64,000 nucleotides of DNA from Spartobacteria bacterium. Lineage in GTDB: Bacteria; Verrucomicrobiota; Verrucomicrobiia; Chthoniobacterales; UBA10450. The notes beneath the pieces are model-generated. The model was not told the DNA's origin, did no database searches, and was given only the letters and a program-made list of their open reading frames with translations. The stretch covers positions 285,273-349,272 of the forward strand of contig PNAA01000024.1 of NCBI GenBank assembly GCA_003169975.1, read 5' to 3'. Positions 5,688 through 64,000 of this stretch are shown piece after piece; the stretch's first letter is position 1; each line of letters starts with the position of its first letter. Made by a program: the position numbers and the translations under genes.

Positions 5688-7397
5688 GTGAGCGAAAATT
5701 CGCGCATCGGGAAGTGGCTCGGGTTCTGGCCATGGCTGGCGGCGGTGCTCACCGGCGTGCTCACCACGCTTTGTTTCGCGCCGTTCGAGCAGACCTGGGT
5801 CTGCTGGATCGCGCTCACGCCCTTGCTCGCTGCGGTCTGGTTTTCCGGGGAGGGAAGCAAGCGCCGCTGGTTGCACGATCTGTTTCTCGGCTATGTCGCA
5901 GGGGTCGTTTTTTTCTGGGGCGTCTTTTACTGGCTCTACACCGTGACCGTGCCGGGGCTGATCCTCGTCGGGCTTTATATGGGTGTCTATTTTGCGATTT
6001 GGAGCTGGCTCGCCGGGCTCGTTAGGCCGCGCCCGATGCTGGCGAAAGAGAAGAAGAAAACGTCCAACCCCGAAAGCTTTCGGGGTTCAACGTCCAACGT
6101 TCAGTTGGGAAATCCGCTGCCTAACGAGTCGCCGGAGGCGCTCTCGCCCTGGCTCAACTCGTTCCGCAATCTCTGGCTCGCGCTCATTCTCGCCGCCGGC
6201 TGGACGAGCCTCGAATGGGTGCGCGGCTGGATGTTCAGCGGCTGGGGTTGGAACGGTCTGGGCGTTTCGTTGCACGACGTCTTGCCGATCATCCAGATCG
6301 CGGAGATTACCGGTGTCGCCGGACTTTCTTTCGTGGTCGCGTTTGCCAACGTGATCGGGGTCGCGACCGTGCGGCGCTTCACGATCGAGAGCAAAGTGCG
6401 AGTGCGCCGACCGCATTACGATTTTACTCTTACCCTGGCCGCGATCGTCGGCCTCTGCGGCTACGGCATCCGGCTTTTGCGGGTGCCGGCCGCGACGGAA
6501 CCGCTGCGCGTCGCGGCCGTGCAGTCCAATGTGCCGCGCGACGAAAAGTTCAGCCGCGAGTTCCAGGTGAAGACATTCGCCCAGTTTACCCGGCTGACGC
6601 GCCTCGCCCTTGCCACCCAGCCGCCACCGCAGTTGATCATCTGGCCGGAAAGTTCCACCCCCGCGCCGGCGCTGCTCGACGAGGAAAATTACCGGTTCGT
6701 GATGGATCTTTCCGCGTCGATCAAGACGGACCTGCTCCTGGGCACGATCGACGCGGACCAGGCCGGCGACTACAACGCGGCGTTGCTCGTCTCGAACGGT
6801 GGCAAAAACATCCAGGTCTATCGCAAGCTGCATCTCGTGCCCTTCGGCGAATACGTTCCCGGCCGGCACGCCGTGCCCTTCATTGCCACGATCGTCGGGG
6901 ACCAGGTGCCGGCTGATTTCACGCGCGGGAAAGAGCCGGTGGTGTTTCGCCTAACGACCGACCAGGTGAAGGTCGCGCCGCTCATTTGCTTCGAGGACAC
7001 GCTCGGCGAGCTCACCCGGCAGTTTGTCCTGCGCGGCGCGAACCTGCTGGCCAACGTGACGAACGACGGCTGGTTCCTGCACACGGCGGCCGGGCGGCAG
7101 CATCTGGCCAATGCCATCTTCCGCTGCGTCGAGACCCGCCGGCCGATGGCCCGCGCGGCGAACACGGGCGTGACTTGTTTCGTCAATCGTTTCGGACGCG
7201 TCACGCAAGTGTTGCTGGACGCCAAAGGCAGCCAGTTCACCGAGGGCGTGCTCACGGGGACGGTAGAAGTTCCAACCGACGGGACGCTCACCTTCTACAC
7301 CCGACACGGTGAGCTTTTCGCCAAAGTGTGCGGCGTACTGACGTTGCTCTTCCTGCTCGCGCGATTGCCCCGACTCGTTAGGCAGAACTCCGGGTAG
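5688..7397 (+). CDS. lnt: Apolipoprotein N-acyltransferase, with an in-frame palindromic insertion
   Basis: Adds the third acyl chain to the N-terminal cysteine of lipoproteins at the inner membrane. N-terminal membrane helices (about residues 10-260) are followed by a periplasmic nitrilase domain with the Glu-Lys-Cys triad: IIWPESSTP (Glu), YRKLHLVPFGEYVP (Lys) and PLICFEDTLGE (Cys), then VTNDGWF. The GTG start at 5688 avoids overlap with the upstream gene. Residues from about 125 (TSNPESFRGSTSNVQ) are encoded by repeat D1 and lie in a loop between membrane helices, so function is probably kept. The stop codon (TAG 7395-7397) is supplied by the left arm of repeat A1. Confidence 0.9.
   Translation: MSENSRIGKWLGFWPWLAAVLTGVLTTLCFAPFEQTWVCWIALTPLLAAVWFSGEGSKRRWLHDLFLGYVAGVVFFWGVFYWLYTVTVPGLILVGLYMGVYFAIWSWLAGLVRPRPMLAKEKKKTSNPESFRGSTSNVQLGNPLPNESPEALSPWLNSFRNLWLALILAAGWTSLEWVRGWMFSGWGWNGLGVSLHDVLPIIQIAEITGVAGLSFVVAFANVIGVATVRRFTIESKVRVRRPHYDFTLTLAAIVGLCGYGIRLLRVPAATEPLRVAAVQSNVPRDEKFSREFQVKTFAQFTRLTRLALATQPPPQLIIWPESSTPAPALLDEENYRFVMDLSASIKTDLLLGTIDADQAGDYNAALLVSNGGKNIQVYRKLHLVPFGEYVPGRHAVPFIATIVGDQVPADFTRGKEPVVFRLTTDQVKVAPLICFEDTLGELTRQFVLRGANLLANVTNDGWFLHTAAGRQHLANAIFRCVETRRPMARAANTGVTCFVNRFGRVTQVLLDAKGSQFTEGVLTGTVEVPTDGTLTFYTRHGELFAKVCGVLTLLFLLARLPRLVRQNSG
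6059..6104. repeat. Palindromic element D1 inside lnt, read in frame
   Basis: The core is a perfect 22-bp palindrome at 6066-6087 (AACCCCGAAAG and its mirror), flanked by AACGTCC and CAACGTCCAACGTTC. The identical core sits inside tgt at 30661-30682. Here it encodes NPESFRG within lnt. TCGTTAGGC (6019-6027) and GCCTAACGA (6119-6127) lie on either side. Confidence 0.85.
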
Positions 7398-7539
7398 CGC
7401 ACGCGTCTCGCGTGCTGGTTGTCGCGTCTCGCGACAACGAACTTCTCCCAGGACGGCTTCTGTTGCAGGACAAAAGTCTCCAAAAAGTCCGCGCTGGTGA
7501 GACACCAGCGCCAGCACGCGAGACGCGTGCGCTACCCGG
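7390..7539. repeat. MITE-like element A1, perfect 29-bp terminal inverted repeats
   Basis: The left arm 7390-7418 (CCGGGTAGCGCACGCGTCTC...) and right arm 7511-7539 are exact reverse complements, about 92 bp apart. The interior contains a smaller hairpin (TTGTCGCGTCTCGCGACAA). The same arms occur at 25855-25988, and a left arm alone occurs in recG at 63843. The left arm provides the lnt stop codon. Confidence 0.9.
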
Positions 7540-7616
7540 AAATCGTTGCGGCGTCTGGTTCACGATCGAACGCCACCGGGTCGCGACACGCGGTTTTCCG
7601 TGCATAGTCTCGCGCA

Positions 7617-25854: not shown

Positions 25855-25988
25855 CCGGGTAGCGCACGCGTCTCGCGTGCTGGCGACGGTGTTCCACCGT
25901 CGCGGACTTGGTGAGATGCGGGCGTGCCAGGAAAAGTTCGTTGCGGTGGAATACCGCAACCAGCACGCGAGACGCGTGCGCTACCCGG
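25855..25988. repeat. MITE-like element A2
   Basis: The same 29-bp arms as A1 (25855-25883 and 25960-25988), with a different interior containing two hairpins (GACGGTG/CACCGTC and TTGCGGT/ACCGCAA). It lies between the convergent GT-C and rluD genes. Confidence 0.9.
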
Positions 25989-30060: not shown

Positions 30061-31215
30061 TCAGTCATTGGTCCGATATCCGGCGACAAAAGTGCGTCGG
30101 AAAGCAGGGAAGCTGCCAGCCGCAATCTCCGCGCGAACCCGTTTCATCAGATTCAAATAGAAGTAGAGATTGTGCAGAGTCATCAGCCTTAGCCCGAGAA
30201 TTTCTTCGGCCTTGATCAGGTGTCGCAGGTAGCCGCGAGTGAAGTCCCGGCAGGCCGGACAGGTGCAGCCCTCCTCGATCGGGCCTTTTTGCAGAGCAAA
30301 CTCCGCGTTCTTTAGATTGAGCGAGCCGCCGGCGGTGAAGGCGGTGCCATTGCGCGCCAGACGCGTCGGCAGCACGCAGTCGAACAGGTCGACGCCGCGG
30401 GCGATCAGTTCGAGCAATTGCGGCGGAGTGCCGAGACCCATCGCGTAACGCGGCTTGTCGTTAGGCAAAAACGGCTCGCTCCATTCCACCGCCTGCATCA
30501 TTTCCGCTTCCGGCTCGCCCACGCTCACTCCGCCGATCGCATAACCATCGAAACCGATCTGCACCGTTGCCTCCGCACTCGCGCGGCGCAGATCCTTGAA
30601 CGTGCCACCCTGCACAATCCCGAAAAGGAGCTGGCGCATTCCCTCTTCTGTTGAACGTTGAACCCCGAAAGCTTTCGGGGTTGGACGTTGAACGTTCGCT
30701 TCCTTGCACCGCCGCGCCCAGCGCGCCGTCATTTCCCCACTGCGCGCCGCATACTCATGCTCGCACGGATAAGGCGGGCACTCATCCAGCACCATCGCGA
30801 TATCGCTCCCCAGCGTGGCCTGGATTTCCATCGCGTTCTCCGGACTAATGAAAGTCGGCGTGCCATCGAGATGATTTTGGAACTGGACGCCTTCCTCCGT
30901 GATTTTGCGCAACTTCGCGAGCGAGAAAATCTGGTAGCCGCCGCTGTCGGTCAGGATCGGGCCATCCCAATTCATGAAGCGGTGCAGGCCGCCAAAGTGC
31001 CGCATCACCTCCATGCCCGGCCTAACGAAAAGGTGGTAAGTGTTCCCGAGAATGATCTGCGCCTCGAGCTCCCGCAGCTCGCCCGGGCTGACACCCTTCA
31101 CGCTCCCCTGTGTCCCGACCGGCATGAAAGCCGGCGTCTCGATCACGCCATGCGCCGTCGTGAGGCGAGCGCGCCGCGCCTTGGTCGCGGAATCTGTCTG
31201 CCAGAGCTCGAACAT
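30061..31215 (-). CDS. tgt: Queuine tRNA-ribosyltransferase, with an in-frame palindromic insertion
   Basis: Exchanges the wobble guanine of GUN-anticodon tRNAs for preQ1 in queuosine synthesis; cytoplasmic. Features: TPAFMPVGTQGSVKG, ILGNTYHLFVRPG, ILTDSGGYQIFS (Asp90), LFGIVQGG, GYAIGGVSVGEP and the zinc site CTCPACRDFTRGYLRHL. About 18 residues at 173-190 (NVQRPTPKAFGVQRSTE) are encoded by palindromic element D3, between ARRCKEA and the conserved LFGIVQGG. They are not part of the normal family sequence. All catalytic motifs remain, so the enzyme may still work. A GH53 gene ends 2 bases upstream of its start. Confidence 0.92.
   Translation of the reverse strand: MFELWQTDSATKARRARLTTAHGVIETPAFMPVGTQGSVKGVSPGELRELEAQIILGNTYHLFVRPGMEVMRHFGGLHRFMNWDGPILTDSGGYQIFSLAKLRKITEEGVQFQNHLDGTPTFISPENAMEIQATLGSDIAMVLDECPPYPCEHEYAARSGEMTARWARRCKEANVQRPTPKAFGVQRSTEEGMRQLLFGIVQGGTFKDLRRASAEATVQIGFDGYAIGGVSVGEPEAEMMQAVEWSEPFLPNDKPRYAMGLGTPPQLLELIARGVDLFDCVLPTRLARNGTAFTAGGSLNLKNAEFALQKGPIEEGCTCPACRDFTRGYLRHLIKAEEILGLRLMTLHNLYFYLNLMKRVRAEIAAGSFPAFRRTFVAGYRTND
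30651..30696. repeat. Palindromic element D3 inside tgt, read in frame
   Basis: The perfect 22-bp palindrome at 30661-30682, identical to that in lnt, is flanked by TTGAACGTTG and GGACGTTGAACGTTC. Read on the minus strand it encodes PTPKAFG, a different frame from the lnt copy (NPESFRG). Confidence 0.85.
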
Positions 31216-36826: not shown

Positions 36827-36940
36827 CTTGTCATCCTGAGCCGCGAAGACGGCGAAGGATCTCTGGCTATTTCCGCATCGGTGCGCGCAGAAACAGTCAG
36901 AGATTCTTCGACTTCGCTGCGCTCCGTTCAGAATGACAAG
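36827..36940. repeat. Inverted-repeat element B2 between rpsG and fusA
   Basis: It begins CTTGTCATCCTGAGC and ends GTTCAGAATGACAAG, with GAAGGATCTCTGG and CAGAGATTCTTCG as inner complementary blocks. It is inverted relative to B3. It fills most of the 216-bp rpsG-fusA gap. Confidence 0.8.
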
Positions 36941-43567: not shown

Positions 43568-43689
43568 TTGTCATTCTGAGCGAAGCGCAGCGGAGTCGAA
43601 GAATCTCTGGCCATTTCCGCGCACACAGGACGTCGCTCGGGAAGAAACAATCAGAGATCCTTCGCCGTCTTCGCGGCTCAGGATGACAA
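43568..43689. repeat. Inverted-repeat element B3 between rplV and rpsC
   Basis: It starts TTGTCATTCTGAGCG and ends CGCGGCTCAGGATGACAA, and is the reverse orientation of B2. It fills the whole gap and ends 9 bases before the rpsC ATG, covering its upstream region. Confidence 0.8.
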
Positions 43690-60118: not shown

Positions 60119-60886
60119 GTGCCGGTTCCGGCTTCGCTCCGTCTCGGTTGCGTCAAGTATCGCAACGCCCTGCCGCTCATTCACGGTTGGAGCGGTGCCA
60201 TGCACTTCGATCATCCGTCGGCGCTCTGCCGGCAACTGGCAGCGGGTGAGCTGGACGTCGCGCTGGTCTCCAGCTTTGAGTACCTGCGCAATCCGATCTA
60301 CTCGATCGTCGACGGGCTCGCGATCGCGTCGGATGGTCCGGTCTTCAGCGTCATTCTTGCGCACCTCGGCGCGATCGAAGCGCTCCGCGAAGTAATTGTC
60401 GATCCCGCCTCGGAGACATCCATCAACTTGCTCCGCTGTTTGTTAGGCGAGCGGGGCGTCGCGGTTCGATTCGTTCTCCAAGGAGAAATCAGCGAAGAGC
60501 GCGGTCAGCTTCTGATCGGCGACCAGGCGATCCTTTTCCGACAACAATCCGGCCGGCACCATCAGTTTCTCGACCTGGGTACGGAATGGAAAGAGAGGAT
60601 GAAAACGCCCTTTGTTTACGCCCTCTGGTTGATCCATCCCGACTACCCGGAGAAGTCGGAAATCGCCGGGGCACTGCGATCGTTGGGTAGGCGAAACCTC
60701 GAACATCTCGAAACGCTGATCGCGGCGCAGCCGGAGCAGAATCGGGCCTTCTGCGATTTTTATTTTCGCGAATGCCTGCGGTTTAACTTTGGCGCAGAGG
60801 AAAAAGAGGGTTTCAAAATGTTCGGTGAATTGTGCGCCAGGCAAAAGTTGCTGCCGCCCAGGTTGCCCGCGCTCAGGCTCGCCTAA
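60119..60886 (+). CDS. mqnA: Chorismate dehydratase
   Basis: First enzyme of the futalosine menaquinone pathway, dehydrating chorismate. The MqnA/MqnD periplasmic-binding-like fold is supported by RLGCVKYRNALPLIHGW, LAAGELDVALVSSFEYLRNP, QLLIGDQAILFR and LGTEWKERMKTPFVYALWLI. GTG 60119 is the start, directly behind mqnE. 255 residues. The stop is in GCCTAACCA, a one-base variant of the abundant word. Confidence 0.9.
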   Translation: MPVPASLRLGCVKYRNALPLIHGWSGAMHFDHPSALCRQLAAGELDVALVSSFEYLRNPIYSIVDGLAIASDGPVFSVILAHLGAIEALREVIVDPASETSINLLRCLLGERGVAVRFVLQGEISEERGQLLIGDQAILFRQQSGRHHQFLDLGTEWKERMKTPFVYALWLIHPDYPEKSEIAGALRSLGRRNLEHLETLIAAQPEQNRAFCDFYFRECLRFNFGAEEKEGFKMFGELCARQKLLPPRLPALRLA

Positions 60887-61045: not shown

Positions 61046-62755
61046 ATGAAACGCGAACACCGCTGGATCCTCGCGGCCACTAACGATTTCGCTGGGGCCG
61101 CAAAATTCGCCGAGACCGTCTGCGCGCTACCCTGTATCGCTGTTCTCCTGCAACGCAAAGGCCTCCTCAGCGATGAGCAGGCGACCGATTTCCTCCATCC
61201 GCGCTTGCGGAGCTTGAGCGACCCATTCCTGCTCCCGAACATGCGTGCCGCCGTGGATCGGATCCTGCGCGCGATCACCGCGGGCGAGCGAATTGTTCTC
61301 TACGGGGATTACGATGTGGACGGCGTCACCTCGCTCGCGTTGCTCAATGAAATGCTCTGTGCTTACGGGGTCCGGCCCGCCCTCTTCCTGCCCTCGCGGA
61401 TGGAGGAAGGGTACGGACTGAGCCGCGAAGGAGTTGAGCGCTGCTGGCAAGCGCATCGGCCGCAACTCCTCATCGCGGTCGATTGCGGGACTTCTTCAGG
61501 CGCCGAGATTGCGGACCTTCGCGCGCGCGGCGCGGAGGTCATCGTGCTCGATCATCACGAGCCGAAAGGCGATCTCCCGGATTGCATTGCCGTCGTGAAC
61601 CCGAAGGCCGTGGGCGACTGCGCCTTCGGCTATCTTTGTAGCGTGGGCATCGTCTTCAAACTCTGCCACGCCCTGCTTAAAACCCGCCTGCTCCCGGGCT
61701 TCGACCTGCGGCAACGGCTCGATCTCGTCGCCCTCGGGACCGTTGCCGATATTGTGCCGCTGGAGGCGGAGAATCGGATCCTTGTCCATCACGGTGCGCG
61801 TCAACTCGCCCTTCGTCGATTGTTAGGGGTGAGCAAACTGATGGACGTCGCAGCCGTCCGGCCGCCGATCGTAGCGGAGCATATCGGCTTCCGGCTCGGT
61901 CCCCGTTTGAACGCGGCTGGTCGCCTCACGACCGCGGAAAAGGCCCTGCAACTTCTCCTCACGGCGGATCTCGCCGAAGCGACCGCGCTGGCCGGCGAGT
62001 TGGACGGACAAAACCGGGAGCGCCAGAGTGTGGAGCGCACAATCGTCGAGGCCGCGGAAAGGAAGATTGCAGAGCAAAATCTCTCTGCGGCTCCGGCGAT
62101 CGTGCTCGGGGACCGCGGATGGCACCCGGGCGTTCTTGGAATCGTCGCGTCGCGAATAGCGCGGAATTATCATCGGCCAACGATCGTCGTCGGCTTTGAC
62201 CAAGCCGGCCTCGGGAAAGGCAGTGGGCGCAGCATTCCGGGATTGTCGCTGGTTGCTGCGCTCGGCCAATGTGCCGATCTGCTCGAAAAATTCGGCGGAC
62301 ATGAGATGGCCGCGGGACTAACGATTCGCGAAGAAAACTTTGCGGCATTCACCGATCTGTTTCAGGAGAGCTGCCGTGGACGGCTGACCGACGAGCACCT
62401 TGAACCGCGACTGCAGCTGGATGGTGAACTCACTCTCGGCGATCTGACCTGGGAGCTGCTCCGCTGGCACGAGCTACTGCAACCGTTCGGCCACGGCAAC
62501 CCCCAGCCGCTTTTTCTTCTCCGGGAAGTGGAGCCGGCCGCACCTCCGAAAATTTTGAAGGAGAAACATCTGCTCCTTCGTTTGCGACAAAACGGCCGTC
62601 AGCAGCGCGCGATCTTCTTCGGCGGCGCGGAGAGCCCGCTGCCCGAGCCGCCGTGGGACGTGGCCTTCCGCCTCAGCGTGGACGAATACGAGGGCGAGCG
62701 GCGACTGCAGATGCAGGTTGAGGCGCTGCGCGCGGCCGCGTCGTTCGAATCATGA
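61046..62755 (+). CDS. recJ: Single-stranded-DNA-specific exonuclease RecJ
   Basis: 5'-3' exonuclease of the DHH family, used in RecF-pathway recombination and repair. Metal-binding motifs GDYDVDGVTS, DCGTSS, the DHH of VLDHHEPKGD and the DHHA1 motif SGRSIPGLSL then GGHEMAAGLTI are all present, with an OB-fold at the C-terminus. 569 residues is normal. Its stop overlaps the recG start (ATGA). ATG 61046 follows a GCCTAACGG word. Confidence 0.95.
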   Translation: MKREHRWILAATNDFAGAAKFAETVCALPCIAVLLQRKGLLSDEQATDFLHPRLRSLSDPFLLPNMRAAVDRILRAITAGERIVLYGDYDVDGVTSLALLNEMLCAYGVRPALFLPSRMEEGYGLSREGVERCWQAHRPQLLIAVDCGTSSGAEIADLRARGAEVIVLDHHEPKGDLPDCIAVVNPKAVGDCAFGYLCSVGIVFKLCHALLKTRLLPGFDLRQRLDLVALGTVADIVPLEAENRILVHHGARQLALRRLLGVSKLMDVAAVRPPIVAEHIGFRLGPRLNAAGRLTTAEKALQLLLTADLAEATALAGELDGQNRERQSVERTIVEAAERKIAEQNLSAAPAIVLGDRGWHPGVLGIVASRIARNYHRPTIVVGFDQAGLGKGSGRSIPGLSLVAALGQCADLLEKFGGHEMAAGLTIREENFAAFTDLFQESCRGRLTDEHLEPRLQLDGELTLGDLTWELLRWHELLQPFGHGNPQPLFLLREVEPAAPPKILKEKHLLLRLRQNGRQQRAIFFGGAESPLPEPPWDVAFRLSVDEYEGERRLQMQVEALRAAASFES

Positions 62756-64000
62756 GCTTAACGAGCGCGGATTTATTATGCGAAGTGGCCTGGATCCCGC
62801 GTCCGCGGAGCACGCCATTGCGCCGCCTCGGTCTGGAGACAGTCGGCGATCTGCTCACCCACTATCCGCGGCGGCACGAGGATCGGCGCGAGTTTGTCGG
62901 TTTTCCGCGCGAGGAAAGCGAGCAGCCCATTTGCCTCTGCGGAGAGGTGGTCAAGACGCAGCTCAGGCGCTTTGGCGGCTGGAAGAAAATCTTTGAGGTG
63001 ACGCTGCAAGAGAGCGACGCGCATGCGCTCAGTCAGCCGCTGGTTTGTCGCTGGTTTAATCTGCATTACGTCCAGAAAATGATCGTGACCGGACAGCGTC
63101 TGGTGGTCTTCGGCAAGCCGCGTCTGCGCGGGCAGCGCCTCTGCATGGAACATCCGGAGTTCGAGATCATCGAGGACGATTCCGCCGACGCGGGAATCCA
63201 CTTCCGTCGCATCACTCCGATTTATCCAGCCACCGAAGGCCTTTCCCAAAGGGCTCTGCGGGGAATGATCTACCGGCTGTTGGAGGAGTGCGAGGACGAT
63301 GGCGCGCTGACTTTGTTGCCGAAGAAGTTCAAGCCCGGTCCGGCCCTGAGCGCGCTGCGGGAGATTCATTTCCCTCCGACGGATGAAGCGCTGGCGCAGG
63401 CCCGCGAAACGCTCGTCCTCGCGGAATTTTTCGCCATGCAGATGCTGCTGGCTTCGCGCCGGGCAGGTTCCCGGGCGCGCGCCGGAGGAATCCATGCTGG
63501 CCCTGGGGAATTGCTCGAGCGTTTCTTGCGCGCGCTGCCTTTTGACCTAACGAACGCACAGGCACGGGTCATCGAGGAAGTGCGGGCCGACCTCGGTTCG
63601 ACGATTCCGATGAATCGATTGCTGCAGGGTGACGTCGGCTCGGGTAAAACGGTGGTGGCGATCGCGGCCATGCTGCTCGCCGTGGAGGCTGGCTTCCAGG
63701 CGGCGTTGATGGCGCCGACCCAGATTCTCGCCGAGCAGCATTACGAAGTCCTGTGCCGCTGGTTGGAGCCGTTAGGCGTGTCGATTTCCCTGCGCACGGC
63801 GGCGCGTAAGGAAGACCCGCTCCCACTCTTTGCGCCTGCTCAGGGTAGCGCACGCGTCTCGCGTGCTGGCGACGGCGTCCCACCGTCGCGAACTTTGCCT
63901 GAAGGAGAGCAATCGGGCGGAGCACAGTATCACCGTCGTCGTCTCCCGCATTTCGAGAAACCATGGGCGATCTACGCCGTGACGATCGGGACGAAATCGC
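62752..64000 (+). CDS. recG: ATP-dependent DNA helicase RecG, 5' part, with a repeat inside
   Basis: Branch-migration and fork-regression helicase; the gene runs off the window after 416 codons. The N-terminal wedge/OB domain (FGGWKKIFEVTLQESDAHAL...) is followed by helicase motifs: LTNAQARVIEEV (Q-like), Walker A GDVGSGKT (293-300) and motif Ia MAPTQILAEQH. At residue 365 the frame enters the left arm of repeat A3 (GSARVSRAGDGVPPSRTLPE) and stays open to the edge. The conserved VGTHAL segment expected next is not recognisable; VTIGTKS is the nearest. The protein may carry an insertion of about 45 residues or be damaged. Confidence 0.85.
   Translation, partial: MSLTSADLLCEVAWIPRPRSTPLRRLGLETVGDLLTHYPRRHEDRREFVGFPREESEQPICLCGEVVKTQLRRFGGWKKIFEVTLQESDAHALSQPLVCRWFNLHYVQKMIVTGQRLVVFGKPRLRGQRLCMEHPEFEIIEDDSADAGIHFRRITPIYPATEGLSQRALRGMIYRLLEECEDDGALTLLPKKFKPGPALSALREIHFPPTDEALAQARETLVLAEFFAMQMLLASRRAGSRARAGGIHAGPGELLERFLRALPFDLTNAQARVIEEVRADLGSTIPMNRLLQGDVGSGKTVVAIAAMLLAVEAGFQAALMAPTQILAEQHYEVLCRWLEPLGVSISLRTAARKEDPLPLFAPAQGSARVSRAGDGVPPSRTLPEGEQSGGAQYHRRRLPHFEKPWAIYAVTIGTKS
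63843..63869. repeat. Left arm of element A3 inside recG
   Basis: GGGTAGCGCACGCGTCTCGC and the following bases match the A1/A2 left arm exactly over 27 bp. The next 30 bases resemble the A2 interior (GACGGCGTCCCACCGTCGCG). No right arm is seen before the window ends. Confidence 0.85.

Follow-up and report, generated by a model that had tools for sequence, protein, structure and literature searches.

Putative RAYT transposases read in frame as internal domains of RecG and other housekeeping proteins of Verrucomicrobiota

Introduction

Inteins occupy the same sites of essential proteins in a patchy manner and carry a nuclease-like domain inside. A different kind of resident is represented by the REP and REPIN repeats and the associated RAYT (TnpA-REP) transposases. 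In PMC8049555, RAYTs are described as single-copy, vertically inherited genes, and the published model treats the copying of a REPIN into a gene as destructive of that gene. In-frame intragenic REPs have been reported for O. terrae, a verrucomicrobium (PMC3733652). In-frame REPs are, in other words, already known; for an in-frame RAYT inside a host gene we find no report in the literature searched, which was mainly open-access and included parts of PMC6006769, PMC2817692, PMC3733652, PMC8049555, and PMC8266576.

Here we analyze a recG gene at the edge of a 64,000-nt stretch of the source genome G000 (G000:C5:285273-349272, hereafter the window), from a soil bacterium whose relatives place it in the Verrucomicrobiota; inside this recG the original prediction had placed half of a MITE-like element.

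Results and Discussion

The recG Locus

The features considered in this work are as follows, positions beyond 64000 being window-equivalent.

62752..64000, + strand: 5′ part of recG, 899 codons in all, continuing outside the window up to 65451 with the stop codon included
63628..63741, + strand: RecG helicase motif I (GDVGSGKT) to motif Ia (LMAPTQILAEQH)
63843..63895, + strand: left REP arm, consisting of GGGTAG and two hairpins, translated in the recG frame as GSARVSRAGDGVPPSRT
63925..64000, + strand: start of the in-frame RAYT (HUH tyrosine transposase) domain, continuing outside the window to about 64386
64433-64455, outside the window: right REP arm
7389..7540, no strand assigned: short two-armed A element (REPIN), non-autonomous, with the same outer arms as the recG element
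25855..25988, no strand assigned: short two-armed A element (REPIN), with the same outer arms as the recG element

The recG frame is open from 62752 to 64000 and continues beyond the window (extended locus L009), giving the total of 899 codons. The GDVGSGKT block at 63628 and the LMAPTQILAEQH block at 63706-63741, which we take to be RecG motifs I and Ia, precede the insertion, the latter being the last conserved RecG block before it. When the sequence beyond 64000 is read for the right arm and the next helicase motifs, both are found in frame. The motifs VGTHALL (64495), DEQHKFG (64558), TATPIPRT (64636), STTVIEVG (64999), and QLRGRIGRG (65092) all follow in the original frame, such that the left REP arm, the RAYT, the right arm, and all later RecG motifs are arranged in this order within a single recG frame. 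The insertion is a 613-bp element of about 205 codons with two arms, and the edge of the window falls inside it. It maps between residues 454 and 462 of the T. maritima RecG, for which the structure is solved (alignment of the orthologue L159); the first RecA-like helicase domain is interrupted, with motif Ia ahead of the insert and motif II behind it. Pfam detects RecG_wedge, DEAD, Helicase_C, and RecG_dom3_C in the fusion, and the NCBIfam RecG family NF008168 scores 748.5 bits against a cut-off of 718.

The original prediction of an A-element arm in the recG frame is confirmed at 63843-63895, and the long insertion that it suspected is present. The element does lie in recG, but as a whole element encoding a putative transposase rather than as half of a MITE: what had been taken for the interior of a short A element behind the arm appears to be the start of the transposase coding region. 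The right arm was missed only at the window's edge, and the conserved segment described as unrecognizable after motif Ia resumes in the same frame. A normal RecG free of the insertion is not found downstream, and insertion-free relatives exist.

Identity of the Inserted Domain

The HUH motif PDHVHLL is located at 64096-64116 and the tyrosine, within YILRNP, at 64312-64329 (window-equivalent). The NCBIfam family NF047646 matches residues 400-540 of the recG fusion with 71.0 bits (75.7 in the genome search) against a curated cut-off of 80 bits, which is exceeded by close relatives (G001 AlaRS, 83.4; G001 MetH, 83.3; G003 RecG, 82.7), while Pfam Y1_Tnp matches residues 414-501. A PDB search with a profile of seven in-frame copies returns TnpA-REP (4er8) with E 2e-4. 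The model of the RAYT domain of L159 (pLDDT 88.8, pTM 0.83) has a TnpA-REP fold, 4er8 being ranked first both by Foldseek (E 2.2e-6) and by VIA-align (Z 13.6, rmsd 2.7, 136 residues aligned, ahead of IS608-type rows with Z of 11.1 or less). The inserted domain is, as judged from sequence and models, predicted to be a RAYT/TnpA-REP-type transposase. The model of the whole L159 RecG-RAYT protein is weak (pLDDT 65, pTM 0.53), with RecG (1gm5) as the first fold match; a folded RAYT core lies between the arm regions 343-391 and 534-580, both of which have pLDDT below 50.

Among 99 distinct RAYT domains, 92 have the HUH motif and the tyrosine intact. The other 7 have lost catalytic residues, so that catalysis is apparently not always retained; they include two members of the genus, G002 with Leu in place of the first His and G004 with His in place of the Tyr. 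No conserved ATG or Shine-Dalgarno sequence is found between the arm and the HUH motif in the carriers examined. An internal start codon for the RAYT was considered and rejected, as the ATGs present in some carriers, e.g., L051, L062, and L065, are not conserved.

Occurrence in Other Genomes and Host Proteins

The RAYT is found in recG in all five genomes of the genus, spanning two contigs in G004. A survey of 83 genomes of the family gives 74 matches to this clade (73 rows scoring at least 108 bits and a contig-edge copy in G063). Reading of the frames and flanks places 65 of them in frame inside a host protein, namely RecG (40), MetH (15), AlaRS (6), CarB (3), or ThrRS (1); MetH has two insertion sites, both of which are occupied in G065. 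The remaining nine are eight free frames and one broken copy. Because of the eight free-standing copies, host residence is not obligate for this RAYT clade. The free copies are also read through both arms, and some have an ATG upstream of the left arm, e.g., L138. We have also considered a RecG fragment upstream of the free RAYT of G060 and G053 (match 242-571) and rejected it: in L138 the upstream frame encodes a different protein and is closed by a stop codon ahead of the RAYT, and from this frame the upstream RecG alignment stretch looks spurious.

The search of the order finds matches with E of 1e-35 or better in 64 of 213 genomes, all matches outside the family lying within frames of 463-1287 codons. 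In the GTDB named-genome set, many genomes of which overlap with the family survey, the best 80 of 162 relatives correspond to 79 loci, with 73 in a host frame and 6 free. These best 80 are mostly from Chthoniobacterales and other Verrucomicrobiota MAGs and include Limisphaerales, Opitutaceae, Prosthecobacter, and Kiritimatiellaeota MAGs; every carrier listed by name among them is a MAG. The sites recur, two in AlaRS and one in ThrRS, and the Chthoniobacter RecG site is that of the source genome. A second RAYT clade is read in frame inside CarB, ValRS, Sua5, a RarA-like protein, ClpB, and a menaquinone-synthesis protein, and the first clade has PriA (L199) and an MmeI-type methyltransferase (L184) as single contig-edge hosts. 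The hosts AlaRS, ThrRS, CarB, MetH, ValRS, Sua5, RarA-like, and ClpB are confirmed by NCBIfam. The five genus genomes contain 37 RAYT matches. Hosts harbor all 8 of the recG-type clade and 4 from the CarB clade, the rest being in frames below 400 codons (24) or in a 715-aa frame (1). The in-host habit is specific to RAYT lineages within the same genomes.

A number of further observations were made on individual hosts. Homologues of the menaquinone-synthesis gene (PF02621) located near recG (window 60119-60886) seem to host RAYTs of the second clade in G019, G020, and G022, where these are read in frame within the homologue (L152, L153, and L156; Pfam applied to L153). Two RAYTs are seen in one host protein in L192 (AlaRS) and L125 (MetH), and a RAYT inside a 715-codon open frame at G003:C65:115485-115919. 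In the AlaRS of the source genome (L237, G000:C26), which has no RAYT, the loop used by the RAYT in other AlaRS proteins holds a different insert, of ~60 residues and with no REP arms visible.

Proposed Reading

The reading that we prefer, with a probability of roughly 0.75, is that a REP element with an active-looking RAYT gene occupies the RecG loop between motifs Ia and II, as an extra domain of one polypeptide. One long polypeptide would be made, in which RecG folds normally and the RAYT sits on flexible REP-encoded linkers, with the promoter, the start codon, the stop codon, and the expression being supplied by the host gene. The RAYT part could cut and join single-stranded REP arms like TnpA-REP and in this way move both the element that encodes it and the short A elements (REPINs). 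Imprecise removal would break the core gene, and residence there would protect the element because only a precise in-frame deletion is tolerable in an indispensable gene. More broadly, we lean toward the view that this is a class of transposases without start and stop codons of their own, which live as in-frame internal domains of housekeeping proteins across Verrucomicrobiota and occupy, leave, and re-occupy loops of RecG, MetH, AlaRS, ThrRS, and CarB. Host and transposase would then constitute one working polypeptide, the latter being an intein-like mobile domain with no splicing.

An alternative is that the insert is taken out before the protein becomes functional, whether through splicing of the protein or the RNA or, in a fraction of the cells, through precise excision of the DNA. 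The spread and the choice of host genes do resemble those of inteins, and excision of single-stranded DNA is within the reach of IS200/IS605-type HUH enzymes. However, the Pfam matches of the fusion and of 22 orthologues contain no Hint/intein splicing or homing-endonuclease domain, and Rfam gives no group I or II intron over the element (L009:1200-2100, E up to 1), the same scan yielding one sub-threshold sRNA match with E 0.034. In addition, the arms are in frame and stop-free, which removal would not demand. Such a scenario is considered unlikely.

REP Arms and Short A Elements

The sequence GGTAGCGCACGCGTCTCGCGTGC is found exactly at 63844-63866 and in the arm pairs of the complete A elements of the window (7393/7514 and 25858/25963), amounting to 5 matches in the window vs 0.00 expected from shuffles. 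As single-stranded DNA, the left arm has two hairpins behind GGGTAG, with z -2.8, while the right arm has z -4.6. The second hairpin is unlike in sequence between the two arms, with the pairing kept in both. GGGTAG and the hairpins flank the RAYT on both sides in inverted orientation, as in GTAG-tagged REPs. The A-type elements measured in recG are mostly of 613 bp. All 26 recG elements measured enter the arm in the same reading phase.

The source genome holds 62 A arms and no B arms. It contains 11 Y1 loci, among which the recG locus alone has A arms in the examined flanks. On account of these two findings, the recG RAYT is the best candidate for mobilizing the short A elements at 7389-7540 and 25855-25988. 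In genus g6, the arm counts track the RAYT type in recG, the B carriers having 80, 113, and 70 B arms vs 3 in the A carrier. In genus g5, arm type and RAYT type disagree, and both arm types are held by 7 of the 7 genomes searched. A simple rule by which the arm type equals the RAYT type was therefore discarded, as it is true for g6 and G000 but fails in g5.

Two other repeats of the window can be mentioned here. One is an inverted repeat family at 36828-36939 and 43568-43689, with arms of 46-59 nt that are 86-93% complementary and unrelated to the A arms. The other is a short, nearly palindromic repeat, AACGT..CCCCGAAAGCTTTCGGGG..ACGTT, present in two copies (6059-6102 and 30654-30697).

Turnover at the recG Site

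The trees used here are "quick" trees with SH-aLRT support only; the recG tree omits L076 and L080 on account of their length, and the RAYT tree omits five domains shorter than 120 residues. The 69 rows of the recG tree comprise 36 occupied sites, 5 scars (an arm or REPIN without RAYT), 8 longer loops without recognizable REP, and 20 short loops. By arm type and RAYT tree, the occupied rows are divided into A (15), B (16), C (4), and D (1). The RecG tree requires 21 changes between occupied, scar, and none, and 15 changes between A or C and B among the occupied rows. In the RAYT tree, the A/C and B copies fall in separate lineages, and 18 host changes are needed overall. As the recG site changes occupant constantly, the recG element is best described, from these trees, as a mobile resident and not as one old fusion.

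The recG genes of L065, with a B element, and L110, with no element, are 95-100% identical per 100-bp window, the only lower value being 87% in the first 100 bp downstream. In L073, a B element is joined to a truncated A arm (its first part), at the site of the intact A arm of the sister L064. For the same-type g5 pairs with finite dS (n = 5), the synonymous divergence of the RAYT part is at least that of the RecG part, from which the A and B cassettes look old, and exchanged or re-inserted rather than newly arrived. In L079, L081, and L106, extra REP arms or REPIN-like repeats are nested beside the RAYT in recG, with the frame kept.

The same trees bear on the possibility of an old domesticated fusion, in which the RAYT assists RecG at stalled forks and owes its retention to this role. 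This could account for the purifying selection on the RAYT part (see below), for the presence of the RAYT in recG in all five genus members, and for the grouping of the A-type RAYTs of one genus in the RAYT tree. It is nevertheless quite unlikely, with at least 21 occupancy changes and at least 15 changes of RAYT type on the RecG tree, which rule out simple vertical domestication, with sister RAYTs inside metabolic enzymes and tRNA synthetases, and with an empty site in many relatives.

Function of the Host Protein

The RecG part has dN/dS values of 0.05-0.11 in 20 carrier pairs and is under strong purifying selection in the carriers. The RAYT part, with 0.03-0.16 in the 15 carrier pairs with finite dS (the other 5 pairs being saturated), is also under purifying selection. 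No second intact RecG was found in the search of G000; a second helicase match, in a separate frame of 1117 aa and 42% identical over 579-843, is taken for Mfd. AlaRS is essential. It is single-copy and RAYT-bearing in 10 of the 11 carrier genomes searched, which are MAGs of 65-98% completeness (in G023, it is split over two contigs, and the exception is G040, in which a further, overlapping piece lies at the edge of a contig). For these two reasons, the predicted AlaRS-RAYT fusion must work.

Inactivation of RecG by the insertion, as raised in the original prediction, would be consistent with the splitting of the first RecA-like helicase domain. We consider it very unlikely, given that the later motifs are intact, that the frame is open to the normal RecG end in many carriers, that G000 holds one RecG only, and that the same habit is seen in the single-copy AlaRS; a RecG pseudogene is, moreover, ruled out by the dN/dS of the RecG part. 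An assembly or binning artefact is hardly credible: all carriers listed by name among the best 80 of 162 GTDB relatives are MAGs, and two MAGs (G053 and G059) contain both an occupied and an empty recG, which may be due to contamination or a second copy, but one insertion site with diverged sequence recurs in about 40 genomes and in several host genes, all in frame.

Comparison with Known Systems

The in-frame element that we propose shares with the described RAYT/TnpA-REP and REP/REPIN systems the HUH and tyrosine enzyme, the 4er8 fold, the flanking GTAG-tagged hairpins, and the short two-armed genomic derivatives. In contrast to the single-copy, vertically inherited RAYT genes of PMC8049555, the recG-type RAYT lacks a conserved start or stop codon that would belong to it alone, is read as an internal domain of core proteins, and is subject to fast turnover at one site. 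Intragenic REPs and Rickettsia palindromic elements (RPE) are likewise repeats in frame within functional proteins, often of DNA-repair genes, but the REP inserts encode about 20-82 amino acids and no enzyme (PMC3733652, available part), whereas the recG insert encodes the putative RAYT itself. A REP inserted into tnpA-REP of subclass 2.4 also leaves the frame unbroken, according to the accessible part of PMC6006769, with the opposite nesting: there the REP lies in the transposase gene, while here the transposase lies in the host gene.

The persistence of REP/RAYT systems is an open question, and a transposase that persists by being harmless inside essential genes, with turnover there, would constitute a directly testable route. 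The results also suggest that a 200-residue nuclease domain is tolerable within tRNA synthetases and a helicase core, which is useful for protein engineering, and that annotation may mistake such host genes for broken or fused ones.

The closest parallel in lifestyle is with the inteins, in terms of the patchy occupation of the same site of essential proteins and the nuclease-like domain inside. The differences are that the Pfam matches of the fusion and 22 orthologues include no splicing domain, and that the RecG insert sits in a variable loop rather than in a catalytic motif. We read the present system as an intein-like niche occupied without splicing.
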